From Streptomyces zhihengii (lineage in GTDB: Bacteria > Actinomycetota > Actinomycetes > Streptomycetales > Streptomycetaceae): 64,000 nucleotides of DNA. The position numbers were made by a program, and so were the translations under genes. The stretch covers positions 620,001 to 684,000 of the forward strand of contig NZ_JAFEJA010000001.1 in the NCBI RefSeq assembly GCF_016919245.1, given 5' to 3'. The notes below the pieces were generated by a model, which worked only from the letters and a program-made list of their open reading frames with translations, had not been told where the DNA came from and made no database searches. Shown piece after piece: positions 7,974 through 35,000 of the stretch (position 1 is its first letter; the number at the start of each line of letters is the position of its first letter).

Positions 7974-8383
7974 CAGGCCGGCACCTCCCTGCGGGCCCGT
8001 GCGGCGAGGAAGCCGCGCAGGGCGTCGAGATCCTCCCCGAGCACGGCGTCGCAGCCGGCCTCGGTCAGCGCGCTGACGTCGGCCTCCTGGCGGTGGCCGG
8101 CGACGCCGAGTTTGCCTCCGAGGACCACGGGCAGTCCGGCGAGCGCGGGTTCCGCGCGCAGCCGGCGGACCGCGGTGAGACCGTCGCGGTAGCCGTGCCC
8201 GTTGACGCTGCTGAGCACCACCGTGTCGGGCGCGTGCCGCAGACAGCCGGCGACGAGCAGCTCGGCGTCGACGCAGGGGCCGAGCCCGACGACCTCGTGC
8301 CCCTGCTCCTCGAGGAAGAGACGGAGATACACGAGATTCCATGTGTGGGAATCCGATGCGGTTCCGCTCAGGAGAATCTTCAT
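7973..8383 (-). CDS. glmS: Glutamate mutase cobalamin-binding small subunit S
   Basis: The 136-residue protein has the Rossmann-like B12-binding fold. The N-terminal signature is SGTASDSHTWNLVYL, in which the His of the DxH motif is the lower cobalt ligand; the usual third-position Gly of DxHxxG is replaced by Asn. VVLSSVNGHG and VVLGGKLGVAG correspond to the dimethylbenzimidazole-tail pocket (the SxL and GG motifs). It is the first gene of a five-gene operon. There is no good ribosome binding site, but a TATTCT hexamer ends seven bases upstream of the ATG, which suggests a leaderless mRNA. The symbol follows clostridial usage and is unrelated to glucosamine synthase. Confidence 0.93.
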   Translation of the reverse strand: MKILLSGTASDSHTWNLVYLRLFLEEQGHEVVGLGPCVDAELLVAGCLRHAPDTVVLSSVNGHGYRDGLTAVRRLRAEPALAGLPVVLGGKLGVAGHRQEADVSALTEAGCDAVLGEDLDALRGFLAARARREVPA

Positions 8384-8570: not shown

Positions 8571-8786
8571 TCAGGCGTACTGGGCGACGAGGCTGCGCGG
8601 GCGGATGTCGGTCCAGTGAACGGTGATGTAGTCGAGGGCCTCGGTGCGCGGGCCCGGTCCCCAGACGCCGTTCCAGCCGGCCGGGACGTCCGCGAAGGCG
8701 GGCCACAGGGCGTGCTGGCCCTCGTCGTTCACGACGACGTGGAAAACACCTTCGGCCTGGTCGAACGGGTTGACGGACTCGCTCAT
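8571..8786 (-). CDS. MbtH-like protein
   Basis: The 71-residue protein is a typical MbtH, a small chaperone that binds the N-terminal subdomain of adenylation domains and is needed for their solubility or activity. The hallmark stretches are [23 protein letters not shown] and [19 protein letters not shown]. Its ATG overlaps the NRPS1 stop (ATGA), so it is translationally coupled to NRPS1. It is the only MbtH gene in the window, so it probably also serves NRPS3 and the free A-T protein. Confidence 0.97.
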
Positions 8787-11700
8787 GACTGACTCCTCGT
8801 TTCTTTCTTCTGCAGGGCGGAGATTTTCTCCGAGACAATTCTTCCGATGATTTCGAGAGGTTCCGGTTCGGCCATTCGCAGATGGCCGCATTCCAGGGTG
8901 CGGTTCTCCACCGTGCCCTCGGTGAAGGGGATCCAGGTGGCGGCGAGGGCGCCCTCGGGCTCGCCCTCCCTGCGGGCGGTGAAGAACAGCACGTCGGTGT
9001 CGGCGACGCCCGGCACATGGCGGGACATCAGCTCCGCGTGGGTCTCGGAGGCCCGCAGCACGGCGCGGAGTTCCGAGGCGGAGAAGCCGGCGAGGACGGG
9101 GTCCTCGCGGCGGACGCGCTCCATCGCCCCGGCGAGGCCGGCCGGCTCGGGGGCCCGCTCCTCGGGCGGCAGGACGCGGACGCTGCCGGGGCCGGTCTGG
9201 TGGACGTCCATCAGGGCGAGCAGCTCGACCTGTTCGCCGGCCTCCCGCAGGCGTACGGCCATGGTGTGGGCGACGAGGCCGCCGAAGGACCAGCCGAGCA
9301 GCCGGTAGGGGCCCCAGGGCTGGACCTCGCGGATCCGTTCCAGATAGGTGTCGGCCATCTCCTCGACGCTGCGCGGCCGGTGGGCGGGGTCGCCGAGGCT
9401 GCGCGCCTGGAGGGCGTAGAGCGGCTGGTCCGCGCCGAGGTGCCGGGCGAGGCCGGCGTAGGCCCAGCCGACGCCGGTGCCGGGGTGGACGCAGAACAGC
9501 GGGCGGGCCGTGCCGCGGCTGCTCAGCGGCAGCAGCACCCCGAGGGCTGCGGAGGCGTCGTCGTCCTCGGTGCCGAGCAGGCCGGCGGGGGTGGGCGAGC
9601 GGAACAGGTCGCGGACGGTGCGTTCGACGCCGAGGACGCGGCGGATGCGGTTGACCAGACGCACGCCGAGCAGCGAATGGCCGCCCAGGGTGAAGAAGTT
9701 GTCGTCGATGCCGACCCGGGGAACGCCGAGGACCTCGGCGAACAGGCCGCACAGCACCTCCTCGCGGGCGTTGCGGGGGGCCCGCCCGGCAGGGTCGGCG
9801 GCCGGCCGGCCGGGGGCCGGCAGGGCGGCGCGGTCCGGCTTGCCGTTGACGGTCAGCGGCAGCGCGTCGAGGACCACGACGGCGGCGGGCACCAGGTGCT
9901 CGGGGAGGTGGGCGCGGGCCTCGGCGAGGAGTTCGGCCCCGGTGACGGTGTCCTCGGCACGGGGGACGGCGTAGGCGACGAGGGCCTTGTCGCCGGGCCG
10001 GTCCTCGCGGACGACGACGAGCGCCTGCCCGACCGCGGGGTGGGCGGCGAGGACGCGTTCGACCTCGCCGGGCTCGATCCGCACACCGCGCAGTTTGACC
10101 TGGCCGTCGGCGCGTCCGAGGAAGCGGAGTTCGCCGTCCGGGGTCCACAGGACGCGGTCGCCGGTGCGGTACATCCGGCTGCCGTCGGCCTCGAAGGGGT
10201 CGGGGACGAACCGTTCGGCGGTGAGGCCGGGGCGGCCGAGGTAGCCGCGGGCGACATGGGCTCCGGCGACGTACAGCTCGCCGGGGACGCCGGGGGGCAC
10301 GGGCCGCAGCGCCGTGTCGAGGACATGGCTGCGGGTGTTGTCCATCGGCCGTCCGAGGTGGAGTCCCGCGCCGCCGAGGGTGCGCTCGCCGGTGGTGAAC
10401 CACTGGTTGTGGGAGGCGAAGGTGGTCTCGGTGGGGCCGTAGGAGTGGACGAGGACGGTGTCCGGGCAGTGGGTGAGGACGCGCTGCACGGCGGCCGGGG
10501 CGGCGACGTCGCCGCCGGTCCACACCTCGCGCAGCAGCCGCAGGGTGTCCAGGCCCTCGTCGGCCATGACGTGGAACAGGCCGACGGTGAAGTAGGCGCA
10601 GGTGACGCCGTGTTCGCGGACGGTGCGGGCGGTCTCGGCGAGGTCGGTGCCGTCGCCGCGCATCACGACCAGACAGCCGCCGTTCAGCAGGGGCACCCAG
10701 ATCTCGAAGACGGAGGCGTCGAAGCCGGTGGCGGAGTGCACCAGCATCCGGTGCGGTCCGCCGCGCGCGGTGTCGCCGTCGGCGGCGAGTTCCCGCACGT
10801 TGCGGTGGGTGACGCCGACGCCCTTGGGCCGGCCGGTGGAGCCGGAGGTGAACATCACGTACATCAGGTCGTCGGCGTGCGCCGCGGTGTCCGCGGGCTC
10901 CGGCACGGGCGCGGAGGCCGGGGTGTCGGTGCCGTCGACGAGGAGCAGGGCGGTGCGGGCCGCGCCGCCGGGGGCGTCCGGGGCGTGGGCCGTGTCGGTG
11001 ACGAGCAGCGCGGCGTCCGCGTCGGCGGTCATCAGGGCGATCCGGGCGGCGGGGAGCCGGGGGTCGAGCGGCAGGTAGGCGGCGCCGCACTTGAGGACGG
11101 CGAGCGCGCCGACCACGAGCGGCACCCCGCGTTCCAGCAGGACGCCGACGGTGTGACCGCGGCGCACACCGGCGGCGCGGAGCCGGGCGGCGAGGGCGTC
11201 GGCGCGGGCGTCGAGTTCCCCGTGGGAGACGGTGCCGTCGTCGGTGATCAGCGCGGGGGCGTCCGGGGTGCGGGCGGCACGGCGGGCGAGCAGCTCGTGC
11301 ACGGTGCCCCGGGGGGTGACGACGGTGGCGGTGTCGTTGTACTCGCCGGTGAGGCGGAACCGGTCGGCGTCGGTGAGCAGGGGCATCTCCCCGATCCGCA
11401 GCCGGGGGTCGGCGGCGACGGCGCGCAGGGTGCGTTCCAGGTGGCCGGCGATCAGGGCGGCGGCGGGGGCGTCGAACAGGTCGGTGGCGTACTCCAGTCC
11501 GCCGGTGAGGCCGGCCGGTGCGCCGTCGGCGTCGCGCAGGTCGGTCAGGGCGAAGGTGAGGTCGAACTTGGTGGTGACGGTGGTCAGCAGGGCCGGGGCG
11601 TCGTCGCGGAACAGGCTCCGGGCGGCGTCCGCGCCGGGCACGCCGCCGGCGTAGTCGTGGTGGAGCTGCACGACGACCTGGGCGAGCGGGTGGTGGGCGG

Positions 11701-14700
11701 TGGTGCGGACGGGGTTGAGGTGTTCGACGACCCGGTCGAAGGGGAGCTCCTGGTGGGCGTAGGCGGCCAGGTCGGTGCGCCGGACGCGGTCGAGGAGGTC
11801 GGCGAAGGCCGGGTCGCCGGAGGTGTCGGTGCGCAGCACCAGGGTGTTGACGAAGAAGCCGACCATGGGGCCGAGGAGTTCGTCGTCGCGTCCCGCCGTC
11901 ATGGTGGCGAGCGGCAGGTCGGTGCCGGCGCCGTGCCGGGTGAGGACGGTCGCGAGGGCGGCCTGGAGGACCATGAAGAGCGTGGCGCCGTTCTCGCGGG
12001 CGAGGGCCTCCAGGGCCCGGTGGGTGGCGGCGTCGAGGGTCAGCGGGGCGTGTCCGCCGCGGTGGGTCGCCTCGGCGGGGCGCGGGCGGGCGGCGGGCAG
12101 GTCGAGGACGGCGGGGGCGCCGGCCAGGGTGGTCTCCCAGAACACGCGGTGGGCGTCGGCCTCGGGACCGTCGAGGAGGTCCTGCTGCCAGAGGGCGTAG
12201 TCGGCGTACTGGACGGGGAGCGGGTCGAAGCCGGGGGCGCGGCCCTCGGCGCGGGCGAGGTAGGCGGTGGAGAGGTCGGCCAGCAGCGGTCCGGTGGACC
12301 AGCCGTCGGCGGCGATGTGGTGGACCAGCAGGACCAGCACCTGGCCGCTGCCGTCGTCCGGTTCGAGGAGCGTGGCCCGCAGCGGTATCTCGCCGGCGAG
12401 GTCGAAGACATGGGCCGACGCCTCGGCCGCGGCGGCCGCGAGCCCGGTGGCGGGGACGACGCGGACGTCGAGGACCGGGCGGGCGGCGGGCAGGACCTCC
12501 TGGTGGGGCTCGCCGTCGGCGTCGCGGTAGCGGGTGCGCAGCACCTCGTGCCGGGCGCAGAGGTCGGCGAGCGCGTCGGCGAGCGGGGCGGCGGCGAGGG
12601 GCGCGGCGGGCCGCAGGACGATCGGGATGTTGTAGGAGGCGCTGGGGCCTTCGAGGGTGTCGATGAACCAGAGCCGGCGCTGGGCGCGGGAGAGCGGGAG
12701 GCGCTCGGGCCGGTCGGCGCGCGCGGCGGGCCGGGGCCGGCCGGCGGCGCCCGCGTCGCCGGTGCCGTCGGCGCGGTGTCCGGCTCCGGCGATGCGGCGG
12801 GCGAGGGCGTCGGGCGAGGGGGCCAGGAACAGGTCGCGCACCTGGACGTGGACGCCGAGACGGGCCCGGATCCGGTTGGCGAGGCGGACGCCGCTCATGG
12901 AGTGGCCGCCGATGGTGAAGAAGTCCTCGTGCGGGCCGACCCGTTCGAGGCCGAGGACCTCGGCGAACATGCCGCACAGCGTGTCGGTGTGGGGGGCGGC
13001 CGGTCCGGTGGCGCCGCGGGCCGCCGCGGCGGCGGCCTCGCGGGCGGCGGCGCGCTCGGCGCCGCGGGTCCGCCGGGCGTCGAGGGCGCGCCGCTCGGCG
13101 CCGGGCACCAGGTCGGTGTCGCGGACGGGGGCGCCGGCGTCACCGGCGGCAGCGCGAAGGGCGCGTTCCAGTGCGGTGAGCAGGATCCGGGGCACGTCCT
13201 CGTCGAGGACGTCGCGGGCGTACTCCAGGGCGATCCGCAGTCCGGCGGGGGCGTCGTCCGCGCCGCGCAGTTCCACGCAGGCGGCGGTGAGGTCGAACTT
13301 GGTGGTGGCGGGGCCCTCCCCGGCGAAGCGCCCGGTGATGCCGGCGTCCGCGGCGCCGGTACCGGCGGCACCACCGCCGCCGTCGCCGCCGAAGCGGAAG
13401 GTCTCCTCGGCGGTGACGGCCGTGCGCAGGGTGAGCATCACCTGGAACAGCGGGTGCAGACCGGGCGCCCGGGGCGGGCTCAACTGCTCGACCAGCAGGT
13501 CGAAGGGGATCCCCTGGTGGGCGAAGGCGGCGAGGTCGCTCTCCCGGACGCGGTCGAGGAGGGCGGCGAAGGCCGGGTCGCCGGAGGTGTCGGTGGGCAG
13601 CACCAGGGTGTTGACGAAGAAGCCGACGAGGTCGTCGAGGGCTTCGTCCTCGCGCCCGGCTACGGGGGTGCCGAGGGCGAGCCGGTCACCGGCGCCCGCG
13701 GCGCGCAGCGCGAGGCCCAGGGCGGCCTGGAGGACCATGAGGACACTGGCGTCGTGCGCGGCGGCGAGGCGCACCAGGCGTTCGTGGACGTCCGCGCCGA
13801 GGTCGGTGTGGACGATCCCGCCCTCGTGGGTCCGGTCGGCGGGACGGGGCCGGTCGAGGGGCAGGGCGGTCTCCGCGGGAAGGCCGTCGAGCGCGGTGCG
13901 CCAGTGGCCGAGGCCGCGGGCCACGACGGAGTCCGGGTCGGCCGGGTCGCCGAGGACGTCGTTCTGCCACAGGGTGTAGTCGGCGTACTGGACGGGGAGC
14001 GGGTCGAAGCCGGGCGCGTCGCCTCCGGCGCGGGCCCGGTAGGCGGCGGAGAGGTCGTTCATCAGCGGAGCGAGCGACCAGCCGTCGCCGGCGACATGGT
14101 GGAGCAGCACGGCGAGGGTGGCGCCGGGGCCGTCGTCGGGGAGGAACAGCGCGACGCGCAGCGGGAGTTCGCGGGAGAGGTCGAAGGTCTCGGCGGTGAA
14201 CCGGGCGACGCTGCACCGGAGTTCGCCCGCCGGGCACTCGACGGTCCGCAGCCGGACGGTGCCGGGGGCGAGCACGTGCTGGTAGGGCTCGTCGCCGGGT
14301 GCGGGGAAGACGGTGCGCAGCACCTCGTGCCGTTCGACGAGGTCGGTCACGGCGGCGGCGAGCGCCGCGCGGTCGGGGGCCGCGTCCAGGTCGAGGACGA
14401 TGGGCATGTTGTAGGCGGCGGAGGGGCCGTCGAGCTGGTCGACGAGCCACAGCCGGCGCTGGGCGTGCGAGAGCGGGACCCGGTCCTCGGGCGGCAGCGG
14501 GTCCTCGTGGACGACGGGCAGGCCAGGGTCGGCGGTGCGCAGCACCTTGCGGTTGATCTTGCCGGAGGTGGTGCGCGGCAGGGAGACGACCAGGGAGACG
14601 GCGGGCACGGCGGCGGCCGGCATGCGGTCGCGGACCCAGTCGCGCAGTTCCTCGGGCGCGGTGCCGCCCTCGGTGACGGTGAAGGCGACGAGCCGCTTGA

Positions 14701-15970
14701 CGCCGTCGGCGTCCTGCTGGGCGACGACGGCGGCCTCGCGGACCGCGGGGTGCCCGGCGAGCACGGAGTCGACGGCGGCGGGGTCGATGCGCTGGCCGCC
14801 GATCTTCACCTCGTCGTCGAGGCGGCCGTGGTAGAGGATCTGGCGGTCCTCTCCGATGGTCACCAGGTCGCCGGTGCGGTAGGCGCGTTCGCCGTCGAGT
14901 GCGGTGAACCGGCGGGAGTTCAGCTCGGGGCGGTGGAGGTAGCCGCGGGTGAGGCCGCCCCCGAGCAGCCACAGTTCACCGGCGACGACGGCGGCCCGGA
15001 CGCCGGGCAGCGGCCGTCCGATGGGGACGGGGCCGGGCTCGTGGCGGGTGAGGTCGGCGACGGTGGCGACGACGGTGGTCTCGGTCGGGCCGTAGGCGTT
15101 GAGCAGCCGGACCCGCTCGCCGGCGAGGGCGCGCCACTGCGCGATCCGCTCGGGCAGCGCGGCCTCGCCGTAGATGATGACGGTGCGCAGCGCCTCGGGG
15201 AGGCGGGCGGAGCCGGTGGCCAGGACGTACACGAGCTCGTGCCAGTAGGCGGCGGGCAGGTCGAGCAGGGTGACGCCGTGGCGGGCGCAGCCGTCGAGGA
15301 GTTCGCCGACGTCGAGCATGTCGTCGGTGCGCAGCACGAGGGTGCCGCCGGCGCCGAGGGTAGCGAAGATCTCCTGGATGCTGGCGTCGAAGTGGAGCGG
15401 GCTGAACTGGAGCACCCGGTCGTCGGGGCCGATGCCGTAGGCGGGGGTGGCCCCGGCGATGAAGTGGGCCAGGGAGTCGTGGGCGACGACGACACCGTTG
15501 GGGGTGCCGGTGGAGCCGGAGGTGTAGATGACGTAGGCGGCGCCCTCGCCCGCGCCGGGCCCGTCGAGGACCACCTCGCCGCGGCGGGCGACCTCGGCGG
15601 GCGCGGGGGCCGTGTCGCCGCAGGCGTCCCGCAGGATCGCCTCGTTGCGGGCGTCGGGGGCGCGGACGTCGAGCGGCAGGTAGGCGGCGCCGGTGGTGAG
15701 GACGGCGAGCAGCCCGACGATCGCGTCGACGCCGCGCGGCCGGTGCAGGGCGACGAGCCGTCCGGGGCCGGCCCCTTCGGCCGCGAGGGCGGCGGCCCGT
15801 TCGCGCACGGCGGCGGCGAGGGCCGCGTAGGTGAGGGAGGTGTCGCCGTGCACGAGGGCGGTGGCGCCGGGCCGGGTGCGCACCTGATGGTCCATCAGGT
15901 CGAGGACGGGCGGGGCGGGGTCGGGAGAGGGTCCGCCGTCGAGCAGGTCGTCCGTTCCGCTGGGGGGCAT
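8783..15970 (-). CDS. NRPS1: A-C-T-C-A-T-TE terminal synthetase
   Basis: The 2395-residue protein reads, in order: A1 (~20-490), C1 (~490-920; HHVAGDG near 622), T1 (GGHS serine near 1022), C2 (~1085-1520; HHIAADG near 1217), A2 (~1540-2030; [10 protein letters not shown] near 1710), T2 (GGHS near 2097) and a thioesterase (~2150-2390; GWSFGG near 2226) for release. A1 is not followed by a carrier, and T1 is not preceded by an A domain. A1 also departs from consensus: [10 protein letters not shown] has Asn for the P-loop Lys, and the A8 loop reads [10 protein letters not shown], although SGKINRK keeps the A10 Lys. By-eye pocket codes are about DAQDIYAVVK (A1) and DAFYWGSFAK (A2), neither assigned. 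The ATG at 15970 has GGAGG seven bases upstream. MbtH is coupled downstream. Confidence 0.95.
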
Positions 15971-16325
15971 GCCGAGTTCCTCCGGTAAGGGGCCGAGAGA
16001 CCGGGGCGAACGGTTCCTCTCGCCTCCGTGGGCCTCCACGCTAGGGGCGGGTCCCGCGCTCCCGGGGCAGTCCGCCCGGCAGCTCGGGGCGGCAGAACGC
16101 GGGCCCCGGGAGCTGCCGGTCGGGGGCGCGGCACTCGGGAGCGCCGGGCGGCCCGGGTGGCCGAATCGCGGTGGGCCATGGCCGAGTTACTGGTCTAGAC
16201 CATAGGTCGGTGCGGTGACTACCGTCGCTCCCGGGAGCGCGCCGGCCGATTCCCCGTGAACCACCGGGCCGGCGCGCGCCCCTGCCCGCAGACGCCCCAC
16301 CGCCCTCCCCCGGAAGGACCCGCTC
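15971..16325. promoter_or_regulatory. Divergent promoter region between NRPS1 and the methyltransferase cassette
   Basis: No gene is seen in these 355 bases. The region carries the NRPS1 ribosome binding site on the left, a DasR-type operator at 16189-16204, and GGAAGGA about seven bases before the GTG of the rightward gene. Upstream in-frame Met codons for NRPS1 fall in this low-complexity stretch and lack ribosome binding sites. Confidence 0.55.
16189..16204. promoter_or_regulatory. DasR-responsive element (dre)-like operator
   Basis: ACTGGTCTAGACCATA contains the perfect 12-bp palindrome TGGTCTAGACCA (16191-16202), the core of the DasR consensus (A(C/G)TGGTCTAGACCA(G/C)T). DasR is the GntR-family repressor of N-acetylglucosamine metabolism in streptomycetes; glucosamine-6-phosphate releases it. 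The site is 122 bases upstream of the methyltransferase/PIG-L cassette and 219 bases upstream of NRPS1. Confidence 0.8.
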
Positions 16326-17507: not shown

Positions 17508-17530
17508 CCGCCGCCGTCGCCACCACCGCC

Positions 17531-19570: not shown

Positions 19571-22500
19571 TCAGGTGGCGGAGCGGGCGCCGGCGCGGGT
19601 GCGGCGGCGGAGGGTCGGTGCCGGGGACGGGGGACGCGGCGCGGCCGGGGCCTCGGTGCGGGTCTCCGTCTCGGCGAGGCGGCGGGCCAGGGCGCGCGCG
19701 GACGGGTTGCGGAACAGGTCCCGGAGGGTGAGGTCCCGGCCGAGCTCGGTCCGGATCCGGTTGAGCAGCCGCACCGCGAGGAGCGAATGCCCGCCCGTGC
19801 GGAAGAAGTTGTCCTCCGGGCCGACCTCCCGTCCGCCGAGGACCTCGGCGAAGAGGAGCAGCAGCCGGTCCACCCGGTCGTCGGCGGGCGCGGCCGGGGC
19901 CGCTTCCTCCGCGGCCGGGGCGCCGGTGGCGAGGATCCGGGCGGGGGTGAGGTACTCGGGCAGCCGCTCGGCCGCCCAGGCCCGCAGCTCCGCCTCGGTC
20001 GCCGTGCCCGGGGCGCGGGTGACCCGGGCGTGCAGCACGCCGTCGTGGACCTCGGCGACCGCCGCCGTCACGGCGGGGTGGGACAGCAGGGCCGCCTCGA
20101 CGCGGCCGGGTTCCACGGGGTAGCCGCCCGCCGTGAGCGTGGCGACGGGGCGCAGGGTGCCGTCGGCGGCGCGGTAGGCGCGGCGGCCGGTGGGGTGCGG
20201 GGTGCCGTCGGCGGTCCGGGTGTGGACCTCGCCCGGGACGCGGACGGCGGCGGGGCGGCCGCGCTCGTCGAGGACGGTCTCCTGCGCCGCCGGGCGGGCG
20301 GGGGTGTCCGGGCCGGCGGGGGCGTCGGAGAGCGGCAGGCCGGGGTCGGCGGCGAAGGCCTCCAGCGCGAGGGCCAGACGCCCGGTCAGGAGCCGTGCGG
20401 TCTCCTCGTCGTAGAGGGCGGTGGCGTACTCCAGGACCCCCCGCAGCCCGCCGGGCGCCCCGTCGGGGCCGGCCAGTTCGGTGACGGCGAAGGTGAGGTC
20501 GCTCTTGGCGCCGGTGCTGCGGAATCCGACCGCCTCGCCGTCGAGGACGGACGGGGTGTCCGGGCCGGTGGCGGCTGCGTGGACCTGGAGCATCACCTGG
20601 ACGAGCGGGGCGTGGGCGGCGGAGCGGTCGGGGCTGAGGTGCTCGACCAGCCGGTCGAAGGGCAGGTCCTGGTGGCTGTAGGCGGCGAGTCCGGTGGCCC
20701 GGACACGGCGCACCAGTTCGCCGAAGGCGGGGTCGCCCGAGGTGTCGGTGCGCAGCACCAGGGTGTTGACGAAGAAGCCGACGAGCGGGTGCAGGGCGTC
20801 GTCCGCGCGTCCGGCGACGGTGGTGCCGATCGCCACGTCGGTGCCGGCGCCGTGCCGGGTGAGCACGGCGGCCAGGGCGGCCTGCACCACCATGAACAGG
20901 GTGGCGCCGTGGGCACGGGCGCAGCGCAGCAGTTCGCGGTGGACGCCGGCGTCGATCTCGAAGCCGGTGAGGGCGCCCGCGCCGTCGCTCTCCAGGGGGC
21001 GGGGCCGGTCGGTGGGGAGGGCGAGGAGCGGCGGCATGCCGTCGAGGGCCGTGCGCCAGTGGGCGAGCTGCTCCGGGGCGATGCCGTTCTCGCCGTCGAG
21101 GAGGTCGTGCTGCCAGAGGGTGTAGTCGGTGTACTGGACGGGCAGCGGCGCCCAGCCGGGGGCACGGCCCCGGACGCGGGCCCGGTAGGCGGTGTCGAGG
21201 TCGGCGAGGAGGCAGCCGGTGGACCAGCCGTCGCCCGCGATGTGGTGCACGAGCAGGACCAGGGTCTGCCGGCCGTCGTCTTCGGTGACGAGCCGGGCCC
21301 GGAACGGGATCTCGGCGGCCAGGTCGAAGACGTGCCCGGCGGCGGTGTCGACGGCGGCGCGTACGGCGTCGGGCCCCTCGGCGCGGACGAGTTCCAGGAC
21401 GGGCCGCGCGTCCGCGACGACCCGCTGGTACGGCTCCCCGTCGTGTGCCGGGCAGACGGTCCGCAGCACCTCGTGGCGCTCGGCGACGTCGCCGAGCGCG
21501 GCGGCGAGGTGGGCCGGGTCGAGCGGCCGGTGGAGCCGGGTGACGACGGGGATGTTGTAGGTGGCGCTCGGGCCCTCCAGACGGTCCATGAACCACAGGC
21601 GCTGCTGGGCGGCGGAGAGCGGGATCCGCTCGGGGCGCAGGGCCGGCGGGACGGGCCGCGGGGCGGGGCGTGCGGGGCCGTCGGCCTGTGCGGAGAGGCG
21701 GCCGAGGAGCTGCCGCGGGGTGGGGGCGAGGAACACGTCGCGGATGGCCGCCTCGGTGCCGAGCGCGGCCCGGATCCGGTTGGTCAGCTTGCCCGCGAGC
21801 AGGGAATGGCCGCCGAGCTTGAAGAAGTTGTCGTCCGGGCCGGCGTCGTCGCGGCGCAGCACCTCGGCGAAGAGGCCGCGCAGGATCTCCTCACGGGGGT
21901 CCGCCGCGGCGGAGTTCGGGGTCTGCCGGGTGCCGTCGGTGTCGGCGGCGCTGCTGCCGCGGGCGTTCTCCAGTGCCTCGTGGCGGCGGTCGAGGGCCGC
22001 GCGACCGGCGTCGTCGAGCAGGTCGACGGCGCTCAGCGGGGTGTCCCCGGCCTGTTCGGCGAGGGCGAGGAGGGCGCGCCCGAAGAGGCCGAGGAGCAGG
22101 TGGGCGGTCTCCTCGTCGTAGAGGTCGGTGGCGTACTGCAGGCCGATGAGCACGGCGGCCGGTTCGCCGTCGGGCGTCCAGGTCTCGGCGCAGTGGAAGC
22201 CGAGGTCGAACTTGGCGGCGGCGAGGTCGGCCCCGTCGAGGGTGCCGCCGGTGCCGCCGAGGCGGACGGTGGTGTCCTGGGCGGTCTGGGTGCTGACCAT
22301 GACCTGGAAGAACGGGTGCCGGCCGAAGGAGCGCTCGGGGTTGAGGTCCTCCACCAGCAGGTCGAACGGCAGGTCGTCATGGGCGAAGGCGGCGAGATCG
22401 GCGTCCCGGACCCGGTCCAGCAGCCCGGCCAGTGTGGGGTCGCCCGACAGGTCGGTGCGCAGGGCGAGGGTGTTGACGAAGAAGCCCACCAGATCGTGGA

Positions 22501-25054
22501 GGCCCTCCTCCGGACGTCCGGCCACCGGGGTGCCGACGACCTGGTCCTCACCCGCCCCCGCGGCCCGCAGCGCCATCGCCAGCGCCGCCCGCACCACCAT
22601 GAAGAACGTGGCCCGCCGCTCACGCGCCACCCCCAGCAGCGCCCGGTGGACACCGGCCCCGAGGTCCGCCGACACCACCGCCCCCCGGTGGCTCGGCTCC
22701 ACCGGCCGCGGACGGTCGGCCGGCAGCCGGGTCTCGGCCGGGACGCCGTCCAGCGCCGCGCGCCAGTGGGTGAGCTGGTCCCGGGCGGTCGGGTGGGTGT
22801 CGCCCAGAAGTTCGTGCTGCCACAGGGCGTAGTCCGCGTACTGGACGGGCAGCGGTGTCCAGCCCGGGGTGCGGCCGTCGGTGCGGGCCCGGTAGGCGGT
22901 GTCGAGGTCGGCGAGGAGGCAGCCGGTGGACCAGCCGTCGGTGGCGATGTGGTGGACGTTGAGCACCAGCGACGCCGTGCCGTCGTCGGCGGCGAACAGG
23001 CGTGCGCGCAGCGGCGGTTCGGTGGCGATGTCGATCGGGAGGCGGGCGAAGGCGGTGACGAGGCCGGCCGCCTCGGCGGCCGCGCAGGCGACCCGGTCGA
23101 CGGTGACCCGCGGGTCGTCCAGGATGTGCTGGCGGGGCTCGCCGTCCGTGGCCGGGTAGACGGTGCGGAGCACCTCGTGGCGTTCCACGACGTCCCGCAG
23201 CGCCGCCGCCAGGAGCGCCTGGTCGGGGAGCGCGTCCATGCGGAGCACCACGGGCGCGTTCCAGGCGGCGGAGGGTCCCTCCAGGCGGGTCTGGAACCAC
23301 AGCCGCCGCTGGGCGTAGGAGAGCGGGATCCGCTCGGGACGCAGCGCGGGCGGTACGGGCCGCAGCACGGGGCGGTCGTCGCCGGCGGCCCGGGTGCCGA
23401 GCCGCTGGAGCAGCCGGCGCGGCGTCGGGGCGAGGAACACGTCGCGGATCGCGGCGCGCAGACCGAGCGCGCCGTGGACGCGGTTGGCGAGCCGGCCGGC
23501 GAGCAGCGAGTGGCCGCCGAGCTTGAAGAAGTTGTCGTCGGGGCCGTACGTCTCGCGGCCGAGCGTCCCGGCGAACAGGCCGCACAGGATCTCCTCCCGC
23601 GGATCGGCGGCCCCGGCGACGGTCCACCGGCCGGGTGCGGGGTCGGGCGCGGCGCCGGGGTCCCGGCGCCGCGCCGCGTCGAGGGCGCGGTGGCGCCCTT
23701 CCAGGGCCTCGCGTTCCCCGGCGTCCAGGAGGCCGAGCGTGTCGATCCCGGTGGACTCCGGCTGTGTGGCGACGGCGGTGAGCGCTCGCCCGAACAGCCC
23801 GAGGAGCAGGTGCGCGGTCTCCTCGTCGTACAGGTCGGTGGCGTACTGGAGTCCGAGGGTCAGTCCGCCGGGATCGCCGGCGGGTGTGGCCCTTTCCTGG
23901 CAGGAGAAGCTGAGGTCGAACTTGGCGGCGGCGAGGTCGGCGTCGTCGAGCTCGCCGGCGACGCCGCCGAGGCGGACGGAGGTCGTCTGCGCCGCCTGGG
24001 CGCTGACCATGACCTGGAAGAACGGGTGCCGGCCGAAGGAGCGCTCGGGGTTGAGGTCCTCCACCAGCAGGTCGAACGGCAGGTCCTCATGGGCGAAGGC
24101 CGCCAGGTCGGCGTCCCGGACCCGGCCGAGCAGGTCGCCCAGCGTCGGGTCGCCCGACAGGTCGGTGCGCAGGGCGAGGGTGTTGACGAAGAAGCCCACC
24201 AGATCGTGGAGGCCCTCCTCCGGACGTCCGGCCACCGGGGTGCCGACGACCTGGTCCTCACCCGCCCCCGCCGCCCGCAGCGCCAGCGCCAGCGCCGCGC
24301 GCACCACCATGAAGAACGTGGCCCGCCGCTCACGCGCCACCGCCAGCAGCGCCCGGTGGACACCGGCCCCGAGATCCGCCGACACCACCGCCCCCCGGTG
24401 GCTCGGCTCCATCGGCCGCGGACGGTCGGCCGGCAGCCGGGTCTCGGCCGCGACGCCGTCCAGCGCCGCGCGCCAGTGGACGAGTTGTTCGTGCGCGAGG
24501 CTCTCGGGATCCTCGGGGTCGCCGAGCATGTCCCGCTGCCAGAGGGCGTAGTCCGCGTACTGGACGGGCAGCGGCTCCCGGTCGGGGGCGCGGCCGTCGG
24601 TGCGGGCCCGGTAGGCGGTGTCAAGGTCGGCGAGGAGCAGTCCGACCGACCAGCCGTCGGTGGCGATGTGGTGGACGTTCAGCACCAGCGCCGCCGTGCC
24701 GTCGTCGGCGGTGAACAGCGCTGCCCGCAGCGGCGGTTCGGTGGCGATGTCGATCGGTAGGCGGGCGAAGGCGGTGATCCGTGCCGCCAGGTCGTCCCCC
24801 GCGGCGCACTCCTGTGCCTCGAACGGCGGCCGCGCGTCCGCCTCGATCCGCTGGTACGGCTCCCCGTCGGCGGCCGGGTAGACGGTGCGGAGCACCTCGT
24901 GCCGTTCCACGACGTCCCGGACCGCCGCCCGCAGGGCCGCGGGGTCCGGGTGGGAGGCCAGCCGGAGCACCACGGGCGCGTTGTAGGCGGAGGAGGGTCC
25001 CTCCAGGCGGGTCAGGAACCACAGCCGGCGCTGGGCGTAGGACAGGGGGATCAC
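19571..25054 (-). CDS. NRPS2: C-T-C-T-C-(A remnant)-T, no intact adenylation domain
   Basis: The 1827-residue protein reads C1 (1-440; HHIATDG near 127), T1 ([10 protein letters not shown], Ser near 514), C2 (~575-1010; HH near 701), T2 ([10 protein letters not shown], Ser near 1083), C3 (~1145-1580; HHIAGDG near 1270), an adenylation remnant (~1591-1708) and T3 (GGHS near 1757). The remnant keeps only the C-terminal subdomain pattern ([18 protein letters not shown]) with no P-loop, no substrate pocket and no A10 Lys. All three C domains keep HHxxxDG and all T domains keep the Ser, so the carriers must be loaded in trans. The GTG at 25054 follows AGGAG and lies at the very edge of the first C-domain motif, with no linker. 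The free A-T gene ends 77 bases upstream. C1-T1 and C2-T2 share near-identical tracts, a recent C-T duplication. Confidence 0.95.
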
Positions 25055-25131: not shown

Positions 25132-27108
<1,977 letters not shown>

Positions 27109-27115
27109 CTCGGGC

Positions 27116-28150
27116 TCACATTCCGTACGGGGAGGCGGAGGGGGCGGTGGTCGGGGAGCAGTCGGACAGCGGCACCGGCTCGCCCATCGCGACGAGGATC
27201 TTGCGGGCGCCGCCGAACGCCTCGCGGCCGTGGGCGCACAGGATGTTGTCGACGAGCATCAGGTCGCCCGCCTGCCAGGTCTCGCGGACGGTGACGGCCT
27301 GGTAGGCCTCGTTGACGGCGTCGACCTCGGCGTCGGTGAGGGCGGTGCCGTCGCCGAGGCGGGTGTCGAAGGGCAGGCCGTCGGGGCCGAAGGTCTCCGT
27401 CAGCACCTCGCGCACGTCCTCGTCGAGGCTGCGTGCGTTCCAGAAGGCGAAGTGGTTGAACCAGGCGCGCTCGCCAGTGACCGGGTGGGTGATGATCGCC
27501 GAGCGGAGCTGACGGGTGCGCAGGGTGTCCTCGTCCAGCCACTCGTAGCCGATGGCGTGCTCGTCGCAGTACTCCTCGGCGCCCGCGGGGTCCTCCGAGG
27601 AGAACGCCTTGCGCCAGGGCATGCCGGCCAGGTCGGAGTAGTTGCGCACGAGGAGCCAGCCCGCCTTCTCGAACCGCGCCACGAGCTCCGGCGGGAGGAG
27701 GGCGAGCGCCTTGCGCATGTCGCCGACGGTGGTGGCGCCGCCGGTCTCCGGGGCGGTGATGCAGCCGAAGAGCAGGACACCGGGGAAGTCGAGGGTGTAG
27801 CTGTTCTCGTTGTGCAGACGGATCGGCTGGGCGGCCGGCAGGTCGGTGGAGGAGAAGACGCCCTCGCCGAAGTCGGTGCGCGGGGTGGCCTTCTCCTTGT
27901 AGCCGGCGCGCTCGCTGACGAGCGCGTCACGGGCCTCGGCGAAGGTCGCCGCGTCGGTGACCGGCAGTCCGCGCAGCATCAGCGCGCCCGAGCGGTGCAG
28001 TTCGGCCTGGATGGCGGACCGCTGCCCGGTCAGCCAGGCGGTGGCCTCCGCCATGCCGGCGAAGCGCGGCACCTGGACGAGCGCGGGCTTGCCGGGCTCG
28101 CGTACGACGGTGATGCCCGCGGCGGCCGGGGTGGGTGCGAAGGTGGTCAT
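27116..28150 (-). CDS. SyrP/TauD-like Fe(II)/2-oxoglutarate-dependent oxygenase
   Basis: The 344-residue enzyme has the facial-triad residues H113 and E115 (RLHNENSY) and distal H307 (CAHGREAF), with Arg in the following GGARKILVAMGEP as the likely 2-oxoglutarate ligand. The HNENSY form is that of SyrP-like proteins, which beta-hydroxylate carrier-bound aspartate and related residues in NRPS pathways. Here it would hydroxylate an amino acid, possibly the Gln/Asn/methylaspartate-type residue on a carrier domain; TauD-type release of free substrate is the alternative. It is seven bases from the A-T gene and 123 bases below the type II thioesterase. Confidence 0.92.
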   Translation of the reverse strand: MTTFAPTPAAAGITVVREPGKPALVQVPRFAGMAEATAWLTGQRSAIQAELHRSGALMLRGLPVTDAATFAEARDALVSERAGYKEKATPRTDFGEGVFSSTDLPAAQPIRLHNENSYTLDFPGVLLFGCITAPETGGATTVGDMRKALALLPPELVARFEKAGWLLVRNYSDLAGMPWRKAFSSEDPAGAEEYCDEHAIGYEWLDEDTLRTRQLRSAIITHPVTGERAWFNHFAFWNARSLDEDVREVLTETFGPDGLPFDTRLGDGTALTDAEVDAVNEAYQAVTVRETWQAGDLMLVDNILCAHGREAFGGARKILVAMGEPVPLSDCSPTTAPSASPYGM

Positions 28151-28273: not shown

Positions 28274-29071
28274 TCAGGCGGCGGTGGCCGCGCTGCCGTG
28301 GAGGGCTTCGAGGACCGGGGTGAGCCGGGCGAAGAAGCCGGGCAGGTCCTGCTGGAAGTAGAAGTGGTCGCCGGGCAGCACCTCGGGCTCGGTCTCCTGA
28401 CCGGCCACCAGGGACCAGCCGCCGAGCATGTCGACGGGGACGATCGGGTCGGCGTCGCCGCCGAACACCGCGACGGGGCAGTCCAGCCGCACGCCGGGTG
28501 CGGTGCAGCGGTAGGCGTCGTCGATGGCGAAGTCGGCGCGGATGGACGGCAGGACGATCTCGCGGAGCTCCGGGTCGTCGAGGATGCCGTCGTCGGTGCC
28601 GCCGCGCTCCTTGATGGCGGCGACCAGCTCGTCGTCGTCGAGCCGCTCCGGGTGCACGGGCGCCTGGTTGGGCAGGACGGGGGCGCGGCAGGCGGAGGCG
28701 ATCAGCCCGCGCGGGGTGCGCCCGGCGGCCTGGAGGGCGCGGGTCACCTCGAAGGCGACCAGGGAGCCCATGCTGTGCCCGAGGACCACCAGGGCGCCGG
28801 TGTCGGCGGGCAGGGCGTCGACGACGGGCAGCGCGAGGTCGTCCACCGAGGCCGGCAGGTCCTCGCAGTAGCGGGCGCCGCGGCCCGGGTACTGGCCGAT
28901 CAGCAGCCGTACGTCGGCCGGCAGGTGGTCGCGCCAGACGCTGTACGCGTGGGCGTTGCCGCCCGCGTGCGGGAGCACCAGCAGCGACAGGCGGTGCGGC
29001 GCGTCCCCGGGCAGGTCCCAGACGACGTCCTCGGGTGCGGGCGTCGGGGAGGTCGTGGCGTCGTTGCTCAT
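28274..29071 (-). CDS. Type II thioesterase
   Basis: The 265-residue alpha/beta hydrolase has the nucleophile motif GHSMGS, an Asp in FGGDADPIVP and a His in GDHFYF, and starts with the LPHAGGNAHAY segment typical of editing thioesterases (GrsT/RifR type). Such enzymes hydrolyse stalled or mis-primed acyl groups from carrier domains. Its ATG overlaps the NRPS3 stop (ATGA). Proofreading is especially useful where carriers are loaded in trans, as proposed for NRPS2. Confidence 0.96.
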   Translation of the reverse strand: MSNDATTSPTPAPEDVVWDLPGDAPHRLSLLVLPHAGGNAHAYSVWRDHLPADVRLLIGQYPGRGARYCEDLPASVDDLALPVVDALPADTGALVVLGHSMGSLVAFEVTRALQAAGRTPRGLIASACRAPVLPNQAPVHPERLDDDELVAAIKERGGTDDGILDDPELREIVLPSIRADFAIDDAYRCTAPGVRLDCPVAVFGGDADPIVPVDMLGGWSLVAGQETEPEVLPGDHFYFQQDLPGFFARLTPVLEALHGSAATAA

Positions 29072-32000
29072 GAGCTGATCCGATCTGTCTCGGTGCGGCG
29101 GCGGAGGGCGGGTCGGGCCTTCCGCGCCGGGGCGGCCTTGAGGGATTCGATGTGTGCGGCGAGCCGGGCCGGGGTCGGGTGCCGGAAGACGTCGCGGACG
29201 GTGAGGCGCACGTCGAGGGCGCCGGCGATGTGGTTGGTGAGGCGGGCTCCGAGGAGCGAGTGGCCGCCGTGGTGGAAGAAGTCGTCGTCGACGGTGAGGG
29301 GGGCGGTGGTGGCGAGGGTGCCCCGGAAGAGGGCGAGCAGCGTCTCCTCCAGCGGGGTGCGCGGGGCGCGTCCGCCGGTGGCGAGGGGGGCCGGATCGGG
29401 CAGGGACCGCTTGTCCACCTTGCCGTTCGGCGTCAGCGGCATCCGCTCCAGCACCGTGAGGTAGGTGGGGACCAGGTGCTCGGGCAGCCGCTCCGCCACA
29501 TGGCGGCGGATGTCGTCGGGCTCGGTCACCCCCTCGGTGACGAGGTGGGCCGCGAGCCGGTCGCGGTACACGGTGACGACGGCCTGGGTGACGGAGGGGT
29601 GGGTGAGCAGGGCGGCCTCGGTCTCGCCGGGCTCGACACGGAAGCCGCGGATCTTGATCTGGTCGTCCGCCCGGCCCTCATAGACGATCCGGCCCCCGGT
29701 GTCGAAGCGCGCCAGGTCACCGGTCCGGTAGAGGCGGGCGCCCTTGGTGCCGTACGGGTCGGGCACGAAGCGGGAGGCGGTCAGGTCGGGGCGGCCGAGG
29801 TAGCCGTGGGCGAGGCCCTCGCCGGCGAGGTAGAGCTCGCCCGTCACACCGGGCGGGCACAGGTTCAGATACGGATCGAGGATGTAGGCGCCCTTGTTGA
29901 CCAGCGGCACCCCCACGGGCACCAGGGCGGGCGGGGCGTCGCCGCGCGGGATGGCGTGGGTGGTGGTGAAGCCCATCGACTCGGCCGGACCGTACCCGTT
30001 CACCACCTCGACACCGGGCCGCAGGCGCTGGAGCTTGTGGACATGCGCGGGGGACGCTGCCTCGCCGCCGGTGAAGGCGACCGTCACCGACTCGAACGCC
30101 TCGGGATGCTCGTCCACCAGGAAGTTGAACAGGCTCGCCGACAGCTGGAGCATCGTCACCCCGTGCCGGCGCGACAGCTCAGCGATCAGCGCCGGCTCCG
30201 GACGCTGCCCCGGCTGGAGCACCGACACACCGCCGTGCAGCAACGCGCCCCAGAACTCCAGACTGAACGCGTCCCACGACACCGGCGAGCACTGGAGGAA
30301 CACCTCCTCCGCACCGAACCGGCCGTAGGACTGACCGCTCACCGTCGACACCAGATTCCGGTGCGACGACAGGATCCCCTTCGGACGCCCCGTCGAGCCC
30401 GAGGTGAACATCACGCACGCCGTGTCGTCGCCGGTGACCTCCAGGCCGAGGTCGTCCGCCGCGAGGGCGGTCAGGTCGGCTGCCGAGGCGGTGACCGTGG
30501 TCCACGGGCCGTCGACGCGGGGGGCGAGCGCGGTGGTGGTGACGAGGTGGCCGATCCCGGCGTCCCCGGCGGCCGAACGCAGCCGCTCGTCGGGGAAGTC
30601 CGGGTCCAGCAGCGTGTAGCCCGCCCCCGTCTTGACCACCGCCACGACCGCCGTCGCGAAGTCCGCACCCCGCTCCAGCAGCACCCCGGCCAGATCACCG
30701 CGCCCCAGCCCCTGCGAGCGCAGATGCCGCGCCAACCGGTTGGCAGAAGCGTTCAGTTCGGCATACGACACCTGCCGGTCACCGTCGACCAGCGCGACCC
30801 GATCCGGCCCCGCGGCCACCTGCGCCTCGAACCGCCGCACCAGCGACAGCTCCCCCGCCTCCGCCACCGACCCGGCCCACGAACCGGTCAACAGCTCCCG
30901 CTCGCCGGACGACAAGGTCTCCAACCGCGACAACCGGACCTCCGGCGCCTCCAGCACCTGCCCCAGCACCCGCCCGAGGACCTCCGCCATCCGCCGCACG
31001 GTCACCTCGTCGAAGAGGTCGGCGGCGAAGATCACGGTGGCTCCGAGGGCCGTGCCGTCGTCCGAGCGCAGGAAGAACTCCAGGTCGAACTTGGCCGATC
31101 CGCCGGCGACGGTCCTCACCTCGGCGGTGGGCAGCCCGTGCAGGGCGAGCTCCGGCACACCGCCGGTCTCCAGGGTCAGGCAGATCTGGAAGAGGGGGTG
31201 GCGGGAGAGGGTCCGGGAGGGGTTGGCCGCTTCCAGGACCAGGTCGAACGGCGCCTCCTGGTGGGCGAAGGCGTCCAGGTCGGCGGACCGGACCCGCGCC
31301 AGCAGCTCACGGAAGGTCGGATCACCCGCGCTGTTCGTCCGCAGCACCAGCGTGTTCACGAAGAACCCCACCAGCTCGGCGAGCGCCTCGTCGGTACGGC
31401 CCGCGACGGGCGAGCCGATCGCCAGATCCGCCCCCGCCCCCAGCCGCGACAACGCCGCCACCAGCGCCGCGTGCACCACCATGAACGGCGTGCACCCCTC
31501 CGCCCGCGCGAACTCCCCGACCCGGGCGAACAACTCCTCCCCCAGGTCCAGTTGCACCTGACCGCCCCGGTGCGACGCCACCGCCGGACGCGGACGGTCG
31601 AGGCCGAGACCGTGCTCCTCCGGAAGGCCCTTCAACGCCTCCCGCCAGAAGGCGAGGTCACCGCCGAGCACACTGCCCGCGTCGTCCGCCGACCCCAGCA
31701 CCCTGCGCTGCCAGGCGGCATAGTCCGCGTAGTCCACCGCCGGAACCTCCAGCACCGACACCGCCGCCCCCGCGACCCGCGCCGCATACGCGCGCTCCAG
31801 GTCGGCGAAGAACGCCGCGTTGGACAGACCGTCCGTCGCGATGTGGTGGAGGACGAGGGACAGGACCTGGGCGCGGTCGTCGGCGAGGTCGAGGAGCGTG
31901 GCGCGCAGGGGTGTATCGGAGCCGAGGTCGAAGGGCGTGCCGGCCAGTTCGGCGAGGGCGGCGTCGAGATCGGCGGAGTCGATCCGGCGACGTCGTACGA

Positions 32001-35000
32001 CGACCCGGGCCTCGTCCGGCGACAGGATCCGCTGCCGCGGCTCCCCGTCCACCGCCTCGAACACCGTCCGCAGCGGAGCATGCCGCCCCACCACATCACC
32101 CAGCGCCGCCGCCAGCACACCGACATCCAGCCCACCCGCACACCGCACCACCAACGGCACGTTGTACGCCGCACTCCCACCCTCCAACTGCGCCAGCAAC
32201 CACAACCGCCGCTGAGCGAACGACGCCACCGGCAGCACACCCGCCACCGAAGCCCCCTCCCCCGGCACCAACGGCGGCAGCACCACACCACCCGCGCCCT
32301 CCCGCCCGGCCACCACCTCCGCCAGACCCGCCACCGTCGGACGCGCGAACACATCCCGGATCGTGAGGCGGACACCCAGCGCCTCGGCCACCCGATTCGT
32401 CAGCCGCGCAGCCAGCAGCGAATGACCGCCCAGGTGGAAGAAGTCGTCGTCGACGGTGAGGAGGGCGGTGGTGGCGAGGGTGCCCCGGAAGAGGGCGAGC
32501 AGCGTCTCCTCCAGCGGGGTGCGCGGGGCGCGTCCGCCGGTGGCGAGGGGGGCCGGCTCGGGCAGGGACCGCTTGTCCACCTTGCCGTTCGGCGTCAGCG
32601 GCATCCGCTCCAGCACCGTGAGGAAGGTGGGCACCAGGTGGTCGGGGAGCCGGTCGGCGGTGTGCCGGCGGATCTCCTCCGGCTCGGCCACCGCGTCCAG
32701 CACCACATAGGCGGCCAGCCGCTGCTCATGCACCGTCACCACCGCCTGCGTCACCGCCGGATGACCCAGCAGCACCGCCTCCGTCTCGCCGGGCTCGACG
32801 CGGAAGCCGCGGATCTTGATCTGGTCGTCGGCGCGCCCCTCGTAGACGATCCGGCCCCCGGTGTCGAAGCGGGCCAGGTCACCGGTCCGGTAGAGGCGGG
32901 CGCCCTTGGTGCCGTACGGGTCGGGCACGAAGCGGGAGGCGGTCAGGTCGGGGCGGCCGAGGTAGCCGTGGGCGAGGCCCTCGCCGGCGAGGTAGAGCTC
33001 GCCCGTCACACCGGGCGGGCACAGGTTCAGATACGGATCGAGGATGTAGGCGCCCTTGTTGACCAGCGGCACCCCCACGGGCACCAGGGCGGGCGGGGCG
33101 TCGCCGCGCGGGATGGCGTGGGTGGTGGTGAAGCCCATCGACTCGGCCGGACCGTACCCGTTCACCACCTCGACACCGGGCCGCAGGCGCTGGAGCTTGT
33201 GGACATGCGCGGGGGACGCTGCCTCGCCGCCGGTGAAGGCGACCGTCACCGACTCGAACGCCTCGGGATGCTCGTCCACCAGGAAGTTGAACAGGCTCGC
33301 CGACAGCTGGAGCATCGTCACCCCGTGCCGGCGCGACAGCTCAGCGATCAGCGCCGGCTCCGGACGCTGCCCCGGCTGGAGCACCGACACACCGCCGTGC
33401 AGCAACGCGCCCCAGAACTCCAGACTGAACGCGTCCCACGACACCGGCGAGCACTGGAGGAACACCTCCTCCGCACCGAACCGGCCGTAGGACTGACCGC
33501 TCACCGTCGACACCAGATTCCGGTGCGACGACAGGATCCCCTTCGGACGCCCCGTCGAGCCCGAGGTGAACATCACGCACGCCGTGTCGTCGCCGGTGAC
33601 CTCCAGGCCGAGGTCGTCCGCCGCGAGGGCGGTCAGGTCGGCTGCCGAGGCGGTGACCGTGGTCCACGGGCCGTCGACGCGGGGGGCGAGCGCGGTGGTG
33701 GTGACGAGGTGGCCGATCCCGGCGTCCCCGGCGGCCGAACGCAGCCGCTCGTCGGGGAAGTCCGGGTCCAGCAGCGTGTAGCCCGCCCCCGTCTTGACCA
33801 CCGCCACGACCGCCGTCGCGAAGTCCGCACCCCGCTCCAGCAGCACCCCGGCCAGATCACCGCGCCCCAGCCCCTGCGAGCGCAGATGCCGCGCCAACCG
33901 GTTGGCAGAAGCGTTCAGTTCGGCATACGACACCTGCCGGTCACCGTCGACCAGCGCGACCCGATCCGGCCCCGCGGCCACCTGCGCCTCGAACCGCCGC
34001 ACCAGCGACAGCTCCCCCGCCTCCGCCACCGACCCGGCCCACGAACCGGTCAACAGCTCCCGCTCGCCGGACGACAAGGTCTCCAACCGCGACAACCGGA
34101 CCTCCGGCGCCTCCAGCACCTGCCCCAGCACCCGCCCGAGGACCTCCGCCATCCGCCGCACGGTCACCTCGTCGAAGAGGTCGGCGGCGAAGATCACGGT
34201 GGCTCCGAGGGCCGTGCCGTCGTCCGAGCGCAGGAAGAACTCCAGGTCGAACTTGGCCGATCCGCCGGCGACGGTCCTCACCTCGGCGGTGGGCAGCCCG
34301 TGCAGGGCGAGCTCCGGCACACCGCCGGTCTCCAGGGTCAGGCAGATCTGGAAGAGGGGGTGGCGGGAGAGGGTCCGGGAGGGGTTGGCCGCTTCCAGGA
34401 CCAGGTCGAACGGCGCCTCCTGGTGGGCGAAGGCGTCCAGGTCGGCGGACCGGACCCGCGCCAGCAGCTCACGGAAGGTCGGATCACCCGCGCTGTTCGT
34501 CCGCAGCACCAGCGTGTTCACGAAGAACCCCACCAGCTCGGCGAGCGCCTCGTCGGTACGGCCCGCGACGGGCGAGCCGATCGCCAGATCCGCCCCCGCC
34601 CCCAGCCGCGACAACGCCGCCACCAGCGCCGCGTGCACCACCATGAACGGCGTGCACCCCTCCGCCCGCGCGAACTCCCCGACCCGGGCGAACAACTCCT
34701 CCCCCAGGTCCAGTTGCACCTGACCGCCCCGGTGCGACGCCACCGCCGGACGCGGACGGTCGAGGCCGAGACCGTGCTCCTCCGGAAGGCCCTTCAACGC
34801 CTCCCGCCAGAAGGCGAGGTCACCGCCGAGCACACTGCCCGCGTCGTCCGCCGACCCCAGCACCCTGCGCTGCCAGGCGGCATAGTCCGCATAGTCCACC
34901 GCCGGAACCTCCAGCACCGACACCGCCGCCCCCGCGACCCGCGCCGCATACGCGCGCTCCAAGTCGGCGAAGAACGCCGCGTTGGACAGACCGTCCGTCG

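Follow-up and report, generated by a model that had tools for sequence, protein, structure and literature searches.

An NRPS subunit without a working adenylation domain in Streptomyces zhihengii and a free A-T protein as its candidate trans-loader

How does a nonribosomal peptide synthetase (NRPS) subunit extend a peptide when it carries no working adenylation (A) domain? The question is raised by NRPS2, encoded within a 64,000-nucleotide stretch of the Streptomyces zhihengii genome (contig NZ_JAFEJA010000001.1, positions 620,001–684,000; the window), which has three condensation (C) domains (C1–C3) and three carrier (T) domains (T1–T3). On the sequence comparisons described here, we favour, at a probability of roughly 0.62, the explanation that NRPS2 is an A-less elongation subunit charged from outside, with a free A-T protein encoded directly upstream serving as its glutamine loader.

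Anatomy and conservation of NRPS2

The NRPS2 reading frame runs on the minus strand from a GTG start codon at 25054, with AGGAG just upstream, down to 19571; the plus strand of this interval, as read, is not the gene. Pfam returned three Condensation matches, three PP-binding matches and one weak AMP-binding_C match, and no match to the AMP-binding core. Our own domain models placed the domains in the order C-T-C-T-C-dA-T (residues C 1–429, T 476–544, C 573–999, T 1044–1112, C 1141–1566, a lid remnant 1643–1710 and T 1717–1785), dA being the degenerate A domain described below. An earlier sequence-only reading of the window had given the same coordinates and domain order, and both were borne out, as was its statement that every HHxxxDG and GGHS motif is intact: the condensation motifs read HHIATDG, HHIATDG and HHIAGDG from C1 to C3, and GGHS is present in all three carriers. 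The carriers thus stand without a functional cis A domain. Since the protein has no A core and three carriers with intact motifs, it is near certain that NRPS2 is loaded in trans, and on this point the anatomy agrees with that reading.

None of the A3, A5, A7 and A10 motifs was found between C3 and T3. The same segment had been described as a C-terminal-subdomain remnant, which holds in so far as the searched A motifs are missing but understates what is there, as a structure model (predicted local distance difference test, pLDDT, 86) gives a folded unit with the last core strands and a complete lid; a single-sequence model with a pLDDT of 42.6 was set aside as useless. As modelled, dA appears to be a degenerate A domain, having a recognisable A fold and no catalytic motifs. 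Some relatives carry longer versions that are equally dead, and the Actinokineospora relative P0107 has a full-length dead A domain in its third module, so that dA is seen at several stages of decay, showing the conversion of a complete module into an A-less one. It would be the leftover of a once complete module, retained as a folded spacer from C3 to T3.

A protein search, in which the 8000 best candidates were scored and 6531 kept, supplied the homologue set, for which the best 120 were used. The A-less design is present in 106 of these, the remaining 14 having other or incomplete architectures and being excluded; two C-T units precede C-dA-T in 83 of the A-less homologues and one in 22, while one is a fragment. 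A3, A5, A7 and A10 are absent from the last module in all 106. The locus set comprised the best 73 of 289 genome-record matches plus two further genomes, and kinship among these loci inflates all counts. Five loci are truncated at the ends of contigs (L007, L020, L024, L026 and L035), and L046, with frames broken throughout, was dropped from the locus counts. The genes for a TauD-type oxygenase (TauD) and the A-T protein lie directly upstream of NRPS2 in 29 of the 29 family loci with enough upstream sequence. Because 106 of the best 120 homologues share the A-less design and the loci keep the arrangement, we regard the design as no sequencing artefact, which answers the earlier reservation that resequencing might show an intact A domain. 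An apparent natural fusion of A-T and NRPS2 in L009 was rejected, because the reading frame of this draft genome is broken within the A-T carrier, and further stretches around A-T genes (L098–L108) held no clear additional A-less carriers. Proteins P0112, P0119, P0122 and P0123 (S. olivoreticuli, S. lydicus) belong to a different family, T-C-T-C-T-C-A-T(-TE, where TE is a thioesterase domain), in which there is one A domain for four carriers, with the code DSCEEGGVYK or DACEEGGVYK.

The free A-T protein and the loop-1 residue

The stop codon of the A-T gene lies 77 bases before the NRPS2 start, as first reported. The A-T protein has complete A motifs (A3, A5, A7 and A10) and GGHS, and its specificity code in the family loci read is DAQDLGVVDK or DAQDLGLVDK, a single V/L change. 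According to a published survey (PMC12283262), DAQDLGVVDK stands for Glu and Gln recognition. A Cys-rich N-terminal stretch of the protein is not conserved, holding between 0 and 8 Cys among the best 120 homologues.

A residue in the carriers supports the link between A-T and NRPS2. The loop-1 site lies five positions N-terminal to the active Ser, and its residue depends on the carrier class. In the loci it is basic (Lys or Arg) in A-T carriers (22/22), T1 (21/21), T2 (7/7) and T3 (21/21), and elsewhere in 2/21 first NRPS3 carriers, 0/19 last NRPS3 carriers, 1/25 NRPS1 carriers and 3/198 unrelated NRPS carriers, which mostly have Asp, Ala or Glu there (Ala in 48/198). Just 1 of 44 A-bearing carriers is basic. 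The protein sets give 120/120 for A-T and, for the first, middle and last NRPS2 carriers, 106/106, 84/84 and 106/106 (296/296). Among 69 carrier columns, this site separates the classes best (Jensen–Shannon, JS, 0.96; next column 0.59), with classes that were chosen after the loop-1 lead had been seen and with the first NRPS3 carrier, which has no A domain in the usual place, kept outside the trans set. In within-locus shuffles, the observed 71/71 compares with a mean of 44.8 and a maximum of 56 over 10000 shuffles. The basic residue is not a mere result of the A-less state, because the A-less carriers of P0068, P0119, P0124, L027, L088 and L089 have A or E at this site; P0107 has K in all three carriers.

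The basic loop-1 residue may therefore be a recognition tag. The A-T carrier forms a clade of its own (support 0.996), hence its sharing of the residue with T1–T3 is not simple descent. We put forward tentatively, at somewhat less than even odds, the wider proposal that this single surface charge marks the carriers that one free A domain may charge in trans, and that evolution brings A-less carriers to match the A-T carrier in their loop-1 type. Overall carrier similarity was rejected as a link between A-T and T1–T3, since the A-T carrier is about 40–42 % identical to T1, T2 and T3 alike, in classes that included a few mislabelled domains; the loop-1 residue alone makes that link. Of the signature that had been said to be common to the carriers of NRPS2 and A-T, ten residues long, the part concerning A-T, T1 and T2 stands, whereas T3 reads differently.

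The A-T protein had been called the obvious source for NRPS2. Its constant neighbourhood in 29/29 loci, its constant Glu/Gln-type code and the shared basic loop-1 residue favour it, but it is not the sole candidate, as the N-terminal A domain of NRPS3 had been missed. On the favoured reading, A-T would activate Gln (or Glu) and load its own carrier; it would probably load T1 and T2 in trans by way of the basic loop-1 residue and, with chances slightly better than even, T3 as well. TauD would probably hydroxylate the Gln, free or carrier-bound. The chain from NRPS1 would move over C1, C2 and C3, gaining two to three Gln-type residues, after which NRPS3 would contribute a residue chosen by its N-terminal A domain and loaded, as is fairly probable, onto its first carrier, and then one more residue before release by its TE. 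The length of the run would be set by the number of C-T units (one or two before the C-dA-T module). One A-T protein feeding up to four carriers with identical residues, as had been suggested, is possible; two carriers (T1 and T2) is the safer statement. For trans-iterative loading of the capreomycin, yersiniabactin and ferrichrome type, the shared tag is in favour, while the second lone A domain and the distinct C3 stand against it.

Gln hydroxylation is a fair guess, because TauD adjoins A-T here and TauD relatives occur near related Gln-type A-T genes elsewhere. The TauD ligand site reads HNE (HxE). Such a site points to a hydroxylase, a halogenase-type site being without the carboxylate ligand, and TauD does not have the latter. 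In L027 and L087–L091, which are other NRPS clusters, but not in L086, a TauD relative is encoded close to a free A-T protein of the Gln type; the A-T proteins of L027 and L087–L091 are 46–50 % identical to that of the window. It is possible that TauD and a Gln-type A-T form a mobile hydroxy-Gln cassette.

The second lone A domain and competing explanations

The first domain of NRPS3 is an A domain with C rather than T behind it, giving the permuted order A-C-T-C-A-T-TE. This N-terminal A domain is present in 26 of the 27 family loci in which that end is readable, with frame-broken L070 and L046 standing outside the count. Its codes (DAQDIYAVVK, DAQDMYGVVK, DAQDGFSVAK, DAEDxGTVVK and near variants) resemble Lys/Orn/Arg-type codes, a comparison drawn partly from PMC12283262. 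Two lone A domains thus face four carriers without an A domain in the usual place. At lid site 494, the N-terminal A domain has Glu in 24/26 loci and A-T an acidic residue in 29/32 (a few mislabelled domains were counted in the A-T class), while the terminal A domains have Q in 24/25. Glu494 is present in 129/129 A-T proteins with a basic loop. In 168 unrelated A-T pairs, however, the association between loop and site 494 is weak (mutual-information z 1.5), with an acidic 494 in 3/5 pairs with a basic loop vs 13/163 others. Given this weak association and the Glu494 of the N-terminal A domain, we downgraded Glu494 as the partner of the tag to a lead.

The descent of the domains bears on the same question. 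Trees of 128 and 87 condensation domains group C1 and C2 with the first C of NRPS3, all three being immediately followed by T, in one clade, and C3 with the last C of NRPS3 in another. Because of this pairing, NRPS2 and NRPS3 look like two copies of a [C-T]-[C-A-T] dimodule in which the A domain of the NRPS2 copy is dead. In the window, C1 and C2 are sisters with 81 % identity, which points to the same acceptor chemistry.

Several observations weigh against A-T as the loader of all three carriers or against the loop-1 residue as its tag. The N-terminal A domain of NRPS3 could also be the source and, like A-T, has Glu494, and the position of C3 in a different clade from C1 and C2 means that T3 may take another residue. 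A common origin of T1–T3 and the first NRPS3 carrier is possible (support 0.68), so the tag within NRPS2 may have been inherited rather than selected slot by slot. The KL motif is found in T3 of 1/106 homologues vs 120/120 A-T carriers. Exceptions to the tag also occur: P0124 has an A-less carrier without it, the last carrier of P0075 has Arg despite an intact A domain of its own, and the first NRPS3 carrier of L022 and L023 has Arg although the N-terminal A domain is present. In L015 (Streptomyces sp. ACA25), where NRPS3 (L015:7861-14079) is without the N-terminal A domain, the first NRPS3 carrier has V, not a basic residue. The A-less carriers of L089 and L027 match the A-T carrier (A), but their A-bearing carriers also have A, so that these two clusters do not discriminate. 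L088, by contrast, favours the tag, since its dA carrier and its A-T carrier both read FFAL and the carrier of the A-bearing module FFEL; because Ala is common at loop-1, the L088, L089 and L027 cases are weak on their own. Finally, the reader of the tag could be TauD instead of an A domain. The dA carrier of L088 belongs to a separate C-dA-T module (L088:2511-8150) with a lid-only A remnant, beside TauD and A-T. The C domain of this module shares 88 % identity with the C that follows, whereas the carriers of the two modules share only 44 %, so that a recent duplication of its neighbour was not supported.

The same facts suggest a division of labour, which we consider unlikely, in which A-T would supply Gln to T1 and T2, and T3 would receive a different residue from the N-terminal A domain of NRPS3, acting in place of dA, giving a Gln-Gln-X segment. 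That domain precedes C rather than T, follows directly on T3 at the junction between the two proteins and is kept in nearly all readable loci; C3 and T3 are phylogenetically apart from C1, C2 and T1, T2; both lone A domains have the acidic lid residue, in place of which the terminal A domains have Q; and the T3 motif departs from KL. L015 argues otherwise: it has a dead dA, yet a search of its genome, a draft whose completeness is not stated, turned up no orthologue of the N-terminal A domain (45 % identity for the best match, compared with 56–96 % among the orthologues of the family loci), so T3 there is probably served in another way, and this T3 is basic, which favours A-T as its loader. 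In L093 and L024, moreover, the N-terminal A domain is without the acidic residue, yet T3 is basic.

Less likely still is a shuttle of the syringomycin kind, whereby Gln would be held on the A-T carrier only, hydroxylated there by TauD and moved to the NRPS2 carriers by a transferase, with the basic residue as a docking mark for the oxygenase or the transferase. An A-T protein with a neighbouring non-haem iron enzyme is indeed what the 29/29 loci contain, and the TauD relatives near the related A-T genes of L027 and L087–L091, though not of L086, would also suit it; however, no SyrC-like protein was identified, the thioesterase of the cluster being closest to RifR, and the HxE site of TauD is not of the halogenase type. 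SyrB1/SyrB2/SyrC provide the precedent (PMC8949500). We regard it as very unlikely that A-T is a starter or part of an unrelated module and that the NRPS2 carriers either receive their residues from an A domain encoded at another place in the genome or only hand the chain on. The first C of NRPS1 is nearest to 7c1k and CdaPS1 C1, a type that we take to be a starter C with its donor on a separate carrier, and the genome holds 48 AMP-binding matches, not all of them NRPS; but A-T lies between TauD and NRPS2 in 29/29 loci and shares its loop-1 residue with the NRPS2 carriers, not with those of NRPS1.

Relation to known systems

The closest known systems include that for syringomycin, whose tailoring enzyme is reportedly iron-dependent. 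SyrB1, alb04, cystobactamid, ramoplanin and enduracidin are described in a review of missing A domains (PMC8949500). As here, the syringomycin system (SyrB1/SyrB2/SyrC with SyrE) places an A-T protein and such an enzyme upstream of an A-less C-T unit (PMC8949500), but with a single carrier, a halogenase and an established shuttle protein, whereas the present cluster has an HxE oxygenase and no shuttle was found. In albicidin (alb04) and cystobactamid synthesis, an inactive main-line A domain is likewise complemented by a stand-alone A-T protein, although at one site, with a domain inserted in the A-T protein (AMDH) and without repeated C-T units (PMC8949500). Free A-T proteins also supply A-less C-T units in the WS9326A synthetase of Streptomyces calvus, for which knockouts and adenylation assays of the trans A-PCP proteins Cal22Thr and Cal23Asn are published (PMC7539972); there, each A-T protein brings its own residue, whereas here one is proposed for up to three carriers of an A-less subunit with a dA. 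In the capreomycin system, the trans-iterative A domain of CmnA-A1/CmnI loads its own T and that of an A-less module, and in modelled contacts basic T residues pair with acidic A residues, but the A domain lies inside another module, serves one extra carrier and uses different residue positions (PMC12400406). The ferrichrome synthetases (including sib1) share T-C repeats, a degenerate A domain, one remaining A domain proposed to serve the others and runs of identical residues; unlike NRPS2, they are fungal single polypeptides with proposed cis loading (PMC2644324).

Trans-complementation by A-T is hence of a known kind, while the literature searched gave no instance of the present variant, with its dedicated A-less subunit, variable number of units, decaying A domain and tag shared among carriers. 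The cluster was named in no title or abstract opening among the publications searched, whose coverage excluded most subscription journals. Carrier choice by a free A domain is an open engineering question, and the family, spread over many Streptomyces, provides natural replicates, with one A-T protein, two or three A-less slots and several slots that must not be loaded; apart from a few exceptions, the loop-1 residue tells the A-less slots from those to be excluded. Should the tag prove real, it would be a carrier identity code by which one A domain serves a variable number of slots and excludes neighbours with their own A domain, and a one-residue swap should redirect loading, giving a simple handle for repeats in peptides.

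The gene row around NRPS2

The minus-strand row runs NRPS1, type II thioesterase, TauD-type oxygenase, A-T, NRPS2, NRPS3 and MbtH, followed by mutase-like, AsnA-like and GltB-like genes (Table 1).

Table 1. Coordinates of NRPS2, its domains and the surrounding features in the window
Feature	Position	Strand	Basis
NRPS2, 1827 residues, C-T-C-T-C-dA-T, no working A domain	19571..25054	-	Pfam and own domain models
C1, HHIATDG intact, clade of A-less units	23768..25054	-	Domain models and trees
T1, FFKLGGHS, loop-1 residue Lys511	23423..23629	-	
C2, 81 % identical to C1	22058..23338	-	
T2, FFKLGGHS, loop-1 residue Lys1079	21719..21925	-	
C3, clade of terminal A-bearing module	20357..21634	-	Domain models and trees
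dA, A-domain remnant (core end and lid), none of the searched catalytic motifs	19916..20296	-	
T3, FFRTGGHS, loop-1 residue Arg1752	19700..19906	-	
Free A-T protein, Glu/Gln-type code DAQDLGVVDK, carrier FFKLGGHS, proposed trans-loader	25132..27108	-	
TauD-type Fe/2-oxoglutarate oxygenase (HxE), adjoins A-T	27116..28150	-	
Type II thioesterase, RifR-like	28274..29071	-	
NRPS1, (C-A-T)x3; first C nearest 7c1k and CdaPS1 C1 among solved structures	29068..38679	-	
NRPS3, A-C-T-C-A-T-TE	8783..16039	-	
N-terminal A of NRPS3, then C not T, code DAQDIYAVVK, second lone A domain	14483..15862	-	
MbtH-like protein	8571..8786	-	
Glutamate (methylaspartate) mutase-like E and S subunits	6648..8332	-	
Asparagine synthetase A-like enzyme	5582..6586	-	
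GltB-like flavin mononucleotide (FMN) domain protein	4248..5585	-	
Phosphopantetheinyl transferase-like protein, below curated cut-offs	1427..2200	-	

Three plus-strand genes (16326–19099; methyltransferase-like, DUF1796 and PIG-L deacetylase-like) separate NRPS2 from NRPS3, and none of them reached the threshold in the related loci searched. A lone A domain about 6 kb to the left of the window (L074) was set aside because its sequence looks like that of an acyl-CoA-ligase-like protein. Within NRPS1, the second and third modules are almost the same (96 % for the C domains, A code DALQFGGGFK twice); they appear to be a recent duplication, which predicts two equal residues. The glutamate mutase-like, AsnA-like and GltB-like genes (3889–8332, minus strand) travel with the cluster, and their predicted functions suggest a 3-methylaspartate-derived residue; a 120-residue protein without a Pfam match also travels with the cluster in some loci.

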